A stretch of DNA of 35,787 nt from Treponema sp. GTDB lineage: Bacteria; Spirochaetota; Spirochaetia; Treponematales; Breznakiellaceae. Below, piece by piece: positions 7,649-12,937 of the stretch (positions are counted from its first letter, which is position 1; each line of letters begins with the position of its first letter). Made by a program: the position numbers and the translations under genes. Where the stretch lies: positions 1 to 35,787 of the forward strand of contig JAITIK010000139.1 of NCBI GenBank assembly GCA_031279555.1, in the 5' to 3' direction. A model generated the notes under the pieces. That model saw nothing but the letters and a program-made list of their open reading frames with translations, did not search any database and was not told where the DNA came from.

Positions 7649-8422
7649 CTACGCTTGCACGCCGGCTTTCGACGCCGGCACTTTATGCACCAGAATGTTA
7701 TTTTGAAGCAGATGCGCCTCTTTTTCAGGCGGGATGCCGGCATCGGTGTACATGACATTGATATTCTCAACAGAAGCCACTTTCACCACACCGCTGTTGG
7801 AGAATTTTTCGGAATCAAAAAGCATCACGACCTGCCGGGCTTGTTTTGCCAATTCCTGAACGGTCTGCGCTCTGAAATAATCATGTCCGGTAAAGCCGAA
7901 CGTTTCAGAAAAACCGTTTGCGCTGATAAAAAACTTGTTCGGCGAGAACAATTCCGCGTTTTTATGGGCGATAGGTCCAACAAGCACTTGTGAATTGCGC
8001 TGATAGTAACCGCCGAGCAGAATAATCTTGCCATGCGGCGACTTGTTGATATAATTCGCAATGAACGCCGAATTGGTGATAATCGTCACATCTTTTTTTG
8101 TATAAGCAAGCTCTTCAGCAAGAATGACGCAACAGGAACCGCAACCTATCATAACGGTCTCGTTTTCTTCAACGCTGGCCGCCGCCGCTTGCGCTATGCG
8201 GTGTTTTATTTCATAATTGTACACAAGCTGCGTTCCGTCATTGGAGCCGGTTTCAATGTAGGCGTATCCGTGTTCACGGCGGATAAGCCCGCGTTGCTCA
8301 AGTTGGTCCAGATCTTTACGAATCGTCACCGGAGAAACATTCATTCTTTTTGCAAGGTCAGTTACTTCGATACGTTGTTGTCTCGCAATCGCTTCTAAAA
8401 TTTTGCTTTGTCTGTTGTTCAT
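7649..8422 (-). CDS. DeoR-family transcriptional regulator
   Basis: A 257-residue DeoR-type repressor. The N-terminal winged helix-turn-helix (about residues 5-56) has the family pattern RQSKILEAIARQQRIEVTDL and NVSPVTIRKDLDQLEQRGLIRREHG. The C-terminal sugar-phosphate-sensing domain includes IGCGSCCVILAEEL and a TNSAFIANYI strand. It should bind DNA and release it upon binding a phosphorylated sugar. AGGAGG lies 7 bases before the ATG. It has no metabolic gene beside it, so its targets are not shown by context; autoregulation through the inverted repeat at 8446-8466 is possible. The nearest sugar genes in the window (GH13, PfkB, GH67) are far away. The last residues are rich in small and basic amino acids, and the stop lies next to repeat R2. 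Confidence 0.9.
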   Translation of the reverse strand: MNNRQSKILEAIARQQRIEVTDLAKRMNVSPVTIRKDLDQLEQRGLIRREHGYAYIETGSNDGTQLVYNYEIKHRIAQAAAASVEENETVMIGCGSCCVILAEELAYTKKDVTIITNSAFIANYINKSPHGKIILLGGYYQRNSQVLVGPIAHKNAELFSPNKFFISANGFSETFGFTGHDYFRAQTVQELAKQARQVVMLFDSEKFSNSGVVKVASVENINVMYTDAGIPPEKEAHLLQNNILVHKVPASKAGVQA

Positions 8423-8924: not shown

Positions 8925-11900
8925 ATGCGCATTATCGCCGACTTACACATACATTCACGCTTTTCCCGCGCCACGAGCAAAAAGCTGACGCCCGCGTATC
9001 TTGACCGCTGGGCTGCCGTCAAGGGCATAGACGTGGTGGGAACCGGAGACTGTACGCATCCTGCATGGCTTGCGGAGTTGAAAGAACAACTTGAAGAAGC
9101 GGAACCGGGTTTTTATACGCTTAAAGACAGCATACGGAACAATTTTGATGTGACGGATGCGTCAGCGGCGCGACTGCCGAAACCGTTTCGCGCATCCGAC
9201 TGCCGTTTTGTACTGACTGGTGAAATCAGTACTATTTACAAGAAAGGCGATAAAACACGGAAGATACATCATCTTGTCATACTGCCGGATATTAAGGCTG
9301 CGGAAACGTTTCAAAACCTGCTTGAGCGGGTGGGCAACATACGTTCGGACGGACGCCCTATTTTGGGCGTCGATTCCCGCGATGTGTTACGCCTGTTGCT
9401 TGACGCCGACGATCGCTCGCTGCTGATTCCGGCGCATATCTGGACGCCGTGGTTTTCCGCGTTGGGCGCGAAATCGGGCTTTGATTCTATAGACGAATGT
9501 TACGGCGATCTCACGCCGTACATTCCGGCCATTGAGACTGGGCTTTCTTCCAATCCGCCAATGAACTGGGCGCTTTCGAGCCTCGACCGGTTTTCCATTA
9601 TCTCTAACTCCGACGCCCACTCGCCGGACAAACTGGGGCGGGAAGCGACGATCTTTGAGATGGACCGTTCATTTCGCTCCCTGTCAAAAGCATTGCGTCT
9701 TGAGAAAGAAGGGCGAAAAAAAGAAGATGTCGCCGGCACCATTGAATTTTATCCCCAGGAAGGCAAATACCACTATGCCGGACACCGGAAATGCGGCGTC
9801 AGCGTGGCGCCGGAAGACGCGGCGTCTGACGCGCCAGGCGGCGTTTGTCCCCGGTGCGGGAAACCGCTTACAGGCGGCGTGATAAACAGGGTGCTTGAAC
9901 TTGCCGACCGTCCGGTTGACGAATGGGGCGTTTGCCCTCCTTCTTGGCGTGGTACGAACAAACGCCCGTATGTGTCCCTCATTCCGTTGCGGGAATTGCT
10001 CGGTGAAACGCTCAATACCGGCGGCGCCTCGAAAAAGGTTGACGGCGCCTATACCGCGCTCATCGAAAAGGCGGGCGGTGAAATCGGCATATTGATGGAC
10101 ATGCCCATAGACAAGATCGAGGCGCAAATCATCCCGTTTGTTTCCGGAGAGCTATTAGCGCAAGCCGTGGCAAGAATGAGGGCGGGGCGCGTATTCATAC
10201 AAGCTGGATATGACGGCGAATACGGGGTGATCCGAGTCTTCGATCCCCGTAGCGAAGATCCGCGCAATGGAATGCTTTTTGAAGAAGACGCCGCGAATCC
10301 ATCGCCCCCGCCGCTTTCTGTGAAAAGGGCGGGGGCGCCGGAAAACCCGCCACAAGCGGTTGAGACTCGCATCCCGGATGCCAATCAGCCTTTTTTCCTT
10401 GACGCCGAACAGAAAGAGGCTGTCTTGTACACGGGAAACCGCGCGCTGGTCATTGCCGGACCCGGTACCGGAAAAACCGCAACGTTATCCGCCCGCATCG
10501 CCCATCTCGTACAAAACGGCGTGGAGGGCGCTTCCATCCTTGCCATAACATTCACCATAAAAGCCGCCAGAGAGTTACGGGAACGCATCGCCAAAACCAT
10601 TTCGGAACCTGCGGCATCCGGAGGCGCCGCCATCGCCGCATCAACCTTTCATGCGCTCTGCACCTCAATACTAAGAGAACAAGCCGAACAACAACCCGCT
10701 CTTTTCAACAATTTTAGAATCATAGACAGCGACGAGCGGGATCGGCTGTTGCGGGAAATCTGTCAGGAAGCGGGCGGCGCGGTCAAGGCGCGCGCGATAA
10801 AAGAGCGCAGTTTGGGGAATTACATTGACGAGAAAAAACGCCTGCTCATGCTCCCCCATGAAAAAACGCCGTTTTTGATTGCAGACGAACTGGATGGCGC
10901 GGAAACCGCCATCCGCAATTGGGCGTTTGACGTCGGCGCTGACGCTGAATTCAATGAGGAAAAAGACCATTTCTATGGCGCATATCAGGATCGGCTCCGC
11001 AAAGAAGCCGCGTATGACTTTGATGATCTCGTAACCGAAACCGTACGGCTGTTCGCCGAACATCCGCGTATCCTTTCCCATTATAGAAACCGATTCCGCT
11101 TCATCTTTGTTGATGAATACCAAGACATCAACTTTGCCCAATACGCCCTTATACGTCTTTTAACAGCGGAAACAACTTCGCTCTGGGTCATCGGCGATCC
11201 CAATCAGGCGATCTACGCCTTCCGCGGCGCGGACAAACGCTTCATCGCCGGCTTCATGACCGACTATCCAGAAGCCAGGGTATTCCGCCTGACCCGCAGT
11301 TTTCGTTGCGCCGCGCCCATCATAGCCGCGGCTGGACGGCTTGTAAACGCCGATATACAAGGCTTTGCCAGCGTCGCCGCAGGCGGCGTCGCGTTTTCCC
11401 GAAGCTGTTACGCCAGCGAAAAAGCGGAGGCGGAGGCTATTGCCCGTAAAATAGCGGCGCTTATCGGAGGAACCAGCTTTTTTGCGCTTGACAGCGGTAC
11501 GGCGGAAGGAAACGCTGGCAGCGCCGCTATGGAAGACTGCGTTGTGCTTGTCCGTGCGGCGATTCTCGCGGATCCTATCGCCACGGCGCTCGCGGATCAC
11601 GGCATCCCCTTCAAGCTCATCAAGGAATTGGACGATACGCTCGGCATAACCGTACACGGCGTACGCCTTATGACGATGCACGCCTCCAAAGGACTTGAGG
11701 CGGAACATGTTTTTATCCCGGCTTTGGAGGACAGACTCCTTCCATTCACGCTCTACGGGGACATGCGGGACAGCCATATTGAGGAAGAACGGCGATTGCT
11801 CTACGTCGCAATGACACGGGCAAAACGCGGTCTATATCTTTCGTGGGCTAAAAAACGGGTTTTTCAAAACCGCGTTATGAAAAACGAGCCAAGCCGCTTT

Positions 11901-11999
11901 CTCAGCGTTTTGGAACCGCTTGTTCCGTTTGTACAGGAGCGCCAGCGTCCGCGCCGTGGAAGCGCGCCGGATGCGCCGGTTCAAATGGATTTATTCTGA
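8925..11999 (+). CDS. EndoQ-like PHP nuclease fused to a UvrD-type helicase, with C-terminal beta-clamp motif
   Basis: A 1024-residue fusion. Residues 1 to about 330 are a PHP domain of the TIGR00375/endonuclease Q type: metal-binding DLHIHS (6-11), NSDAHSPD, and a Cys-rich zinc segment (C290, CPRCG at 308-312) followed by GVINRVLELADRP. EndoQ enzymes cut DNA beside deaminated bases and abasic sites. From about residue 485 a superfamily-1 helicase follows: Walker A AGPGTGKT, DEYQD (730-734), GDPNQAIYAFRGAD, LTRSFRC, MTMHASKGLEAEHVF and RRLLYVAMTRAKRG, so all main motifs look intact. The last five residues, QMDLF, fit the sliding-clamp binding consensus. The inferred role is repair of deaminated DNA: incision, unwinding and clamp contact in one chain. 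The gene has its own promoter and overlaps the convergent QueG-like gene by 19 bases. Confidence 0.88.
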   Translation: MRIIADLHIHSRFSRATSKKLTPAYLDRWAAVKGIDVVGTGDCTHPAWLAELKEQLEEAEPGFYTLKDSIRNNFDVTDASAARLPKPFRASDCRFVLTGEISTIYKKGDKTRKIHHLVILPDIKAAETFQNLLERVGNIRSDGRPILGVDSRDVLRLLLDADDRSLLIPAHIWTPWFSALGAKSGFDSIDECYGDLTPYIPAIETGLSSNPPMNWALSSLDRFSIISNSDAHSPDKLGREATIFEMDRSFRSLSKALRLEKEGRKKEDVAGTIEFYPQEGKYHYAGHRKCGVSVAPEDAASDAPGGVCPRCGKPLTGGVINRVLELADRPVDEWGVCPPSWRGTNKRPYVSLIPLRELLGETLNTGGASKKVDGAYTALIEKAGGEIGILMDMPIDKIEAQIIPFVSGELLAQAVARMRAGRVFIQAGYDGEYGVIRVFDPRSEDPRNGMLFEEDAANPSPPPLSVKRAGAPENPPQAVETRIPDANQPFFLDAEQKEAVLYTGNRALVIAGPGTGKTATLSARIAHLVQNGVEGASILAITFTIKAARELRERIAKTISEPAASGGAAIAASTFHALCTSILREQAEQQPALFNNFRIIDSDERDRLLREICQEAGGAVKARAIKERSLGNYIDEKKRLLMLPHEKTPFLIADELDGAETAIRNWAFDVGADAEFNEEKDHFYGAYQDRLRKEAAYDFDDLVTETVRLFAEHPRILSHYRNRFRFIFVDEYQDINFAQYALIRLLTAETTSLWVIGDPNQAIYAFRGADKRFIAGFMTDYPEARVFRLTRSFRCAAPIIAAAGRLVNADIQGFASVAAGGVAFSRSCYASEKAEAEAIARKIAALIGGTSFFALDSGTAEGNAGSAAMEDCVVLVRAAILADPIATALADHGIPFKLIKELDDTLGITVHGVRLMTMHASKGLEAEHVFIPALEDRLLPFTLYGDMRDSHIEEERRLLYVAMTRAKRGLYLSWAKKRVFQNRVMKNEPSRFLSVLEPLVPFVQERQRPRRGSAPDAPVQMDLF

Positions 12000-12937
12000 G
12001 AGCCGCCGGCGCAAGCCAACGCAAGCCTCGCGCTCCGTCTGATATGCTTCGGCTTGAGCCACGAAAGTCCCATAGCGGTTCCCTTGAAAAACGTCTTTAT
12101 CTCCTCATCAGACATGGCAAGGAGCTTTCGCGCATCCACATAGGCGGGTAAGATTCCCTCGCGGGTCTCCACCCCCCTGATTGGCTTTTTGTTGTGGGGA
12201 CAGACATCCTGGCACGCCGTGCAGCCGTAGAGCCGCCGCCCCCATTGTTCGGCGATATGCCGCGGGACGGACGCCTCGTTCCCCGACGCGTACCATTGGA
12301 TGCACTTGTTCCGCTCAATGCCGCCTTCGCGCCGGATCGCCTTCGTGAGGCAGGCTTCCACGCAGAAGCCGCATCTAACGCATACGGATCGGTTCGATTC
12401 GGGCGCGTCGCTTTCGAGCGGGAATGGGAGGGTCATGGCGGCGATGATGACAAGCGATCCCGCTTCCGGCGTTATAACGAGGCTGTTGCGTCCCTGGCTT
12501 CCCAGCCCGCAGGCAAGAGCAAGCGGCTTTTCCGGTATTGGCGAGTTGCAAAAAATGCGGTAACTGGAGCGGCGGTCCGCATGAATTCCGCCGGCATTTA
12601 TGCCGGTGAATAAACGCCTGAATGTTTGGGAGAGCTTCTGCAATCGTTTGACGGCCTCTTTGTAGTAGTTACGTCGCGCAAAAGGCGCAATATATGCGCG
12701 GCAGTTTTCCTCAATGTCTTGTTCAGCGGATGCGCATCCCGCCGCCGCATCTTCATTTCCATACGGCAAAGCCGCCACTAACAGCGAGGGCGAGCTTTCT
12801 CCCCAGCGGTCTTGTAGAACGCCGCGCTTTATAAAACCGCTGGCGTTTTCAGAAAGTATAAATGGAGCGAGAATACGAACGCGGCTAAACCCGGCGTCCA
12901 GCGCCATAGCGCGTATGGTTTCTTTCAAAGCGTCCAT
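11981..12937 (-). CDS. QueG-like double [4Fe-4S] protein (epoxyqueuosine reductase family, catalytic Asp replaced)
   Basis: A 318-residue protein of the QueG family. It has two ferredoxin-type cluster motifs, CVRCGFCVEACLTKAI and YGCTACQDVCPHN, plus the cobalamin-domain segment PEKPLALACGLGSQGRNSL. QueG performs the last step of queuosine synthesis in tRNA. In E. coli QueG the catalytic Asp134 sits in VDSAPILER; the matching stretch here is FCNSPIPEK, with Asn131 (codon AAC) and a one-residue gap. It may therefore be a QueG paralogue (a double-cluster-binding protein of other function) rather than a true epoxyqueuosine reductase. It follows the tetR gene by 24 bases, with no Shine-Dalgarno site, probably in one transcript. 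Confidence 0.8.
   Translation of the reverse strand: MDALKETIRAMALDAGFSRVRILAPFILSENASGFIKRGVLQDRWGESSPSLLVAALPYGNEDAAAGCASAEQDIEENCRAYIAPFARRNYYKEAVKRLQKLSQTFRRLFTGINAGGIHADRRSSYRIFCNSPIPEKPLALACGLGSQGRNSLVITPEAGSLVIIAAMTLPFPLESDAPESNRSVCVRCGFCVEACLTKAIRREGGIERNKCIQWYASGNEASVPRHIAEQWGRRLYGCTACQDVCPHNKKPIRGVETREGILPAYVDARKLLAMSDEEIKTFFKGTAMGLSWLKPKHIRRSARLALACAGGSQNKSI

Follow-up and report, generated by a model that had tools for sequence, protein, structure and literature searches.

Does a single bacterial gene join a nuclease for deaminated DNA to a helicase and a clamp-binding tail, and how would three such parts act together? The question is raised by a reading frame in a 35,787-nucleotide stretch of a Treponema sp. 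genome (contig JAITIK010000139.1, positions 1 to 35,787, from the 2.9 Mb assembly GCA_031279555.1), which we call the window.

8925..11999, + strand: EndoQ-UvrD fusion gene, 1024 aa, uninterrupted ORF with an ATG start and no co-directional neighbour

The position of this frame and its motifs DLHIHS, NSDAHSPD, CPRCG, GVINRVLELADRP and QMDLF are exactly as a first-pass annotation had given them. On one side, a DeoR-type regulator (7649-8422, - strand) is transcribed away from the fusion gene; on the other, a gene for a Fer4_16 protein resembling QueG (11981-12937, - strand) converges on it. The two converging frames share 19 bases (window 11981-11999), which span the clamp motif and the stop codon. 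The surroundings of the fusion gene are not conserved across phyla and consequently, beyond the pairing with a helicase described below, say nothing of its function. The nearest relatives, Treponema MAGs, carry a fusion protein that is 92% identical, and we read their isolate names as those of termite-gut bacteria.

The nuclease half has the fold and catalytic residues of endonuclease Q

8925..10241, + strand: EndoQ-type PHP nuclease domain, residues 1-439 (fold match to 5zb8; phmmer alignment)
8940..8954, + strand: PHP motif D6-x-H8-x-H10, invariant in 64 of 64 aligned members and equal to PfuEndoQ D6/H8/H10 (PMC4357722)
9609..9620, + strand: conserved SDAH motif, S229-D230-A231-H232 (alignments)
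9783..9857, + strand: zinc-site candidates H287, C290, C308 and C311, invariant and aligned to PfuEndoQ

Residues 1-439 match the sequence of PfuEndoQ 5zb8 (E 5.2e-47) at about 30-35% identity, and their predicted structure superposes on 5zb8 across 386 of 398 residues, C-terminal part included (Z 44.3, 2.4 A). Across the 64 aligned family members, D6, H8, H10, D42, H45, E100, H115, H171, E204 and H232 are invariant; D230 is nearly so, being replaced by N in one of the 38 fusions compared. By alignment, the catalytic residues correspond to the PfuEndoQ set D6, H8, H10, E76, H84, H139, E167 and SDAH (listed in PMC4357722), and none has been lost. Fold and conserved residues thus support the EndoQ identity that had been proposed for this PHP domain, and the likeness to the characterised enzymes (PfuEndoQ, TkoEndoQ, MacEndoQ and Bacillus pumilus EndoQ) extends over the whole domain. 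One difference lies in the candidate zinc site, where the first ligand is His and PfuEndoQ has Cys, as part of a four-cysteine site. The four candidates are invariant in the 64 aligned members, and the same His-Cys-Cys-Cys pattern (H287/C290/C308/C311) is found in the fusions, the operon forms and the solitary bacterial homologues, in all bacterial rows compared.

Of the two profiles named in the first-pass annotation, the UvrD model fits the other half of the protein strongly (PF00580, E 2.1e-71), whereas TIGR00375 gives E 4.2e-47 but only 161.3 bits, under its curated cut-off of 326.6 bits. That cut-off is reached in 0 of 296 genomes of the phylum. We therefore class the protein as EndoQ-type and not as a TIGR00375 equivalog.

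Two other forms of the nuclease gene were seen. The EndoQ genes of two Omnitrophota loci (L204:1759-4089 and L205:2587-4908) carry an in-frame insert of about 340-360 residues with LAGLIDADG_3 matches, starting with CYDEKTEVLT and ending in WCGN/S; it is an intein, inserted at the catalytic ETGLS segment. Two further loci (L206 and L207) have 282-aa nuclease ORFs with a stop codon inside the domain. In the genome of the latter, an additional match to the end of the nuclease domain adjoins the truncated ORF, so this copy appears to be a frameshift or a pseudogene.

The motor half has lost its 2B subdomain

10398..11936, + strand: SF1A UvrD/PcrA-type motor, residues 492-1004 (PF00580 match; predicted structure)
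10458..10478, + strand: Walker A, GPGTGKT, residues 512-518 (alignment)
11112..11126, + strand: Walker B, DEYQD, residues 730-734, invariant
11601..11666, + strand: site of the absent 2B subdomain, residues 893-914 (length comparison among fusions)

The PF00580 match scores 241 bits against a gathering cut-off of 23. A single structure prediction of the fusion contains, besides the PfuEndoQ fold, a motor that matches PcrA, UvrD and Rep with Z 36-38; it shares their 1A, 1B and 2A folds (Z ~37) and all their motor motifs, and GPGxGKT, DEYQD, GDxxQ, R794, KGL and YVxxTR are invariant among the 64 aligned members. The equivalog models for PcrA, UvrD and Rep have cut-offs of 911-1168 bits, well above the best score of 317 bits (PcrA).

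The annotation had called this a complete UvrD-type helicase. It does have every motor motif but lacks the regulatory 2B subdomain: the span G893-R914, which is where 2B sits in PcrA and UvrD, measures 22 residues in the window protein versus 88-175 residues in most fusions. Comparable shortening occurs in three other fusion loci (L048, L109 and L212) and, by a related measure that gives 35-44 residues, in 8 of the 13 helicases from operons; one relative that keeps 2B is L075. The shortened helicases are scattered through the helicase tree and are not adjacent. Consequently, 2B has apparently been lost several times, independently, within the family.

What such a loss would do can be gauged from Rep. 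Without 2B, a Rep monomer is activated as a helicase (PMC13238157), and RepDelta2B unwinds naked DNA better while displacing proteins less well (PMC6158625). Whether the motor of the fusion is likewise set free by doing without 2B is a matter of speculation. These data also bear on what the motor is for. Instead of displacing a strand after incision, it might scan for lesions or clear obstacles before incision, a role that is in keeping with the translocation of UvrD-family monomers on single strands (PMC13238157) and for which clamp tethering would suit patrolling. Set against it, 2B is missing from the window protein and several relatives, and the RepDelta2B profile (PMC6158625) suits strand opening more than road clearing. 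A pre-incision motor is accordingly unlikely in our estimate, and we favor strand opening at the nick.

A conserved clamp motif ends the protein

11982..11996, + strand: predicted C-terminal clamp-binding motif QMDLF, residues 1020-1024 (family conservation)

The annotation had proposed that the QMDLF ending fits the beta-clamp consensus, a proposal that homologues could have undermined by lacking any such motif. They do not: among 66 non-redundant fusions from about ten phyla, 62 have a strict Q..[LMF]F within their last 25 residues and 65 have a looser Q..[LMFI][FLW] ending, and the sole fusion without it (L055) is cut off by a contig end. In comparison, 16 of 530 other ORFs from the same loci have the strict motif, in a background set that retains some truncated fusions. 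The frequency of the tail motif is far above chance.

The consensus for beta-clamp motifs is QL[S/D]LF, since revised to Q-aliphatic-x-[L/M]-[F/L] (PMC13254535); QMDLF departs from the strictly aliphatic residues of the revised form by its Met at position 2. Residues 1011-1024 are disordered in the predicted model (pLDDT < 50), and the residues ahead of the motif form an unconserved stretch of variable length. QMDLF thereby has both the QL[S/D]LF type and the exposed, disordered position expected of a beta-clamp client. A tail at the motor end also fits what is known of the archaeal enzyme, because PCNA binds and stimulates archaeal EndoQ through the EndoQ C-terminus (PMC4858679); the same study had already noted clamp motifs in bacterial EndoQ. 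The fusion shares with known EndoQ proteins a C-terminal sliding-clamp motif, a PIP box in archaea and a clamp motif in bacterial homologues (PMC4858679), and the difference here is that the intact motif stands at the end of a fused or paired UvrD-type motor.

In congeneric genomes the expected binding partner, DnaN, contains the canonical pocket sequences TDGRRLA, FPNYxRVIP and MPMQ, judged by E. coli DnaN. Two models found no dnaN in the assembly to which the window belongs; that assembly is incomplete, to which we attribute the missing gene, given its presence in 11 of 11 congeners.

Could QMDLF instead be a structural piece of the helicase C-terminus, and no clamp ligand? The motif does lie at the motor end in all full-length members. 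It follows, however, a low-pLDDT stretch of variable length, the PcrA-type paralogues of the relatives lack it, and a like motif ends 21 of 25 stand-alone nucleases that have no helicase at all. We consider a purely structural role highly improbable, and by analogy with characterised relatives the tail would bind the clamp. A helicase and nuclease carrying a clamp motif has a parallel in RecBCD bound to the beta clamp (PMC13254535), which differs in its nuclease fold and in its task at double-strand ends. The other SF1A helicases, UvrD, PcrA and Rep, are unlike the fusion in both its clamp-motif ending and its N-terminal nuclease.

A second motif at the start of the linker

10266..10379, + strand: disordered linker, residues 448-485 (pLDDT < 50; sequence and length variable)
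10266..10280, + strand: NGMLF, residues 448-452, decayed internal clamp motif (position equals Qxx[LIMF]F in relatives)

Where the linker between nuclease and motor begins, 16 of 27 non-Treponema fusions carry Qxx[LIMF]F, against 0.86 expected from shuffled linkers, and this internal motif nearly always lies 10 residues past the end of the nuclease domain. Its position is that of the C-terminal end of stand-alone EndoQ proteins. Treponema-like fusions have nearly always lost the Gln and keep the hydrophobic-F part alone (30 of 39). One fusion with both motifs (L093) has QISLF internally and QLSLF at its end. Double occupancy of the clamp has been described (PMC13254535). In one fusion (L109), the linker past the nuclease domain is enlarged by tandem repeats of a GTNAECI-type unit.

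Fusions and gene pairs across phyla

Judged by strong matches to the nuclease or the fused helicase, in genomes many of which are incomplete, the fusion occurs in every one of the 12 congeneric genomes; among 25 other genomes from the family 9 have it, and among 23 from the order 4 do. Of the 46 positive genomes in the whole phylum, fusion-length frames occur in about 32 and stand-alone ones in about 11. Carriers, with taxa as labelled in their records, belong to Spirochaetota, Omnitrophota, Bacteroidota, Calditrichota, KSB1, Cloacimonadota, Aminicenantes, Elusimicrobia, Planctomycetota, Nitrospinota and Deltaproteobacteria.

The spirochaetal stand-alone proteins that we read have no clamp tail. 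One of them (L128, genome G193) groups with the fusions in the tree and has neither a clamp tail nor a helicase within the 7 kb read; it has likely lost both secondarily. Others (L129 and L131-L137) are EndoQ-like proteins that are more divergent and also end without the tail.

Omnitrophota show the same partnership in a second form. A TIGR00375-type match is found in 129 of their 193 genomes, mostly in stand-alone ORFs of 400-470 aa, together with about a dozen fusions. We read 43 loci of stand-alone nucleases in this phylum: in 34 the protein ends in a clamp motif, and in 13 a gene for a short UvrD-type helicase comes next on the same strand. The paired frames overlap or are separated by fewer than 40 bases in 9 of these 13 cases, and by 97-699 bases in the others. 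The clamp motif is present on 12 of the 13 paired helicases and on 10 of the 10 nucleases counted; at one pair (L198), both frames contain a motif-like stretch but continue beyond it.

In the helicase tree, the operon helicases form a single clade (100/100) nested among the fusion helicases, and a supported branch (100/99) separates the PcrA-type paralogues from all fusion and operon helicases. The nuclease tree has one cluster of helicase-linked proteins (SH-aLRT 99), which takes in a few solitary ones, and sets 25 solitary nucleases apart. The trees fit either a partnership that arose once and was later split in Omnitrophota or repeated fusion. The recurrent fusion or pairing of the two genes suggests a DNA-repair partnership of EndoQ and helicase.

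A nuclease paired with a UvrD-like helicase is also the layout of the Gabija defence system (GajA/GajB), and the fusion might in the same way attack foreign DNA with odd or deaminated bases. Its helicase scores 276 bits against the PADLOC GajB models, yet the PcrA model scores higher, at 317 bits. The nuclease is a different one, Gabija having no EndoQ, and a scan with Pfam models found no GajA-type domain among six neighbours in the window, where no defence setting was seen. The neighbours are housekeeping genes that differ between lineages; all 12 congeneric genomes carry the fusion; and tblastn returned no match among 72,556 plasmid and 50,697 phage records. The conserved replication-clamp tail, in turn, indicates host replication and repair. 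Together, these observations make a defence role very unlikely.

Proposed incision, unwinding and resynthesis at the clamp

We propose that the fusion is probably a sliding-clamp-tethered, incision-first repair enzyme for deaminated bases. By analogy with characterised relatives, its EndoQ domain would flip out the damaged nucleotide, whether uracil, hypoxanthine, xanthine or abasic site, and nick the DNA 5' of the lesion; one side of the nick would end in a 3'-OH, and the strand on the other side would start with a 5'-phosphate and the lesion. EndoQ cuts 5' of uracil and also at hypoxanthine, xanthine and AP sites, the Bacillus pumilus enzyme included (PMC6202378), and its products carry 5'-P and 3'-OH ends (PMC4357722). 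The attached motor, presumably 3'-to-5' like its relatives, would open the duplex at the nick; moving with this polarity along the intact strand, it would strip off the lesion-bearing 5' end. A clamp-bound polymerase could then extend the 3'-OH as a primer, a flap nuclease could cut away the displaced piece and a ligase could seal the strand. Throughout, QMDLF would anchor the enzyme flexibly to the beta clamp and so bring incision, strand opening and resynthesis together at a single place. Incision, unwinding and clamp binding by the fusion itself are what its relatives lead us to infer; the order of events and the flap route are speculative. Several points weigh against the proposal: the scores under the TIGR00375 and the PcrA, UvrD and Rep equivalog cut-offs, the His at the first zinc position, the Met in QMDLF and the dnaN gene missing from the window's assembly.

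Contrary to what the annotation had suggested, the machine would not be self-contained. That description overstates the case, since Omnitrophota have the pair as two genes and a polymerase, a flap nuclease and a ligase are still needed.

Little is known of how deamination repair proceeds once EndoQ has nicked the strand. For the next step, a helicase fused to or beside EndoQ in about ten phyla is a candidate, with the shared clamp motif indicating where that step would occur. A broader reading, for which we judge the chances to fall a little short of even, is that of a dedicated bacterial incision-first pathway: EndoQ and a UvrD-family motor of its own would act together, both held at the sliding clamp. 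This partnership would have one origin and be fused or split according to phylum, many fusions would grip the clamp with two motifs, and the tethered motor would shed its autoinhibitory 2B, lost repeatedly. EndoQ, its bacterial members and the clamp motif in bacterial EndoQ are already published (PMC4858679, PMC6202378); in the open-access literature, where a negative is weak, neither the fusion of EndoQ to a helicase nor the adjacent pair, the double motif or the 2B losses turned up. The family also supplies natural 2B-less UvrD-type motors, where until now mainly engineered deletions have been studied.

Candidate lesions

We considered whether the fusion replaces uracil-DNA glycosylase (UDG) and rejected this explanation, because UDG coexists in 54 of 60 relatives; it is present in 35 of the 35 more complete ones and in 13 of 16 distant carriers. 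Uracil repair by the fusion would consequently be redundant, which counts against our preferred explanation.

The coexistence of UDG and the modest identity to PfuEndoQ would also be expected if the nuclease had drifted to another substrate, such as AP sites in general or an intermediate of repair, and acted on deaminated bases secondarily. The conserved residues of the PHP center speak against such drift, as does the B. pumilus EndoQ, which retains the archaeal specificity (PMC6202378). Moreover, EndoV is found in 0 of the 60 relatives, which leaves hypoxanthine without its usual enzyme, and we regard the drift as quite unlikely. Genomes lack EndoV whether or not they carry the fusion, so the two do not vary together. 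Since most carriers have UDG and not one of the 60 relatives has EndoV, hypoxanthine may be the main lesion, the one for which the fusion matters most.
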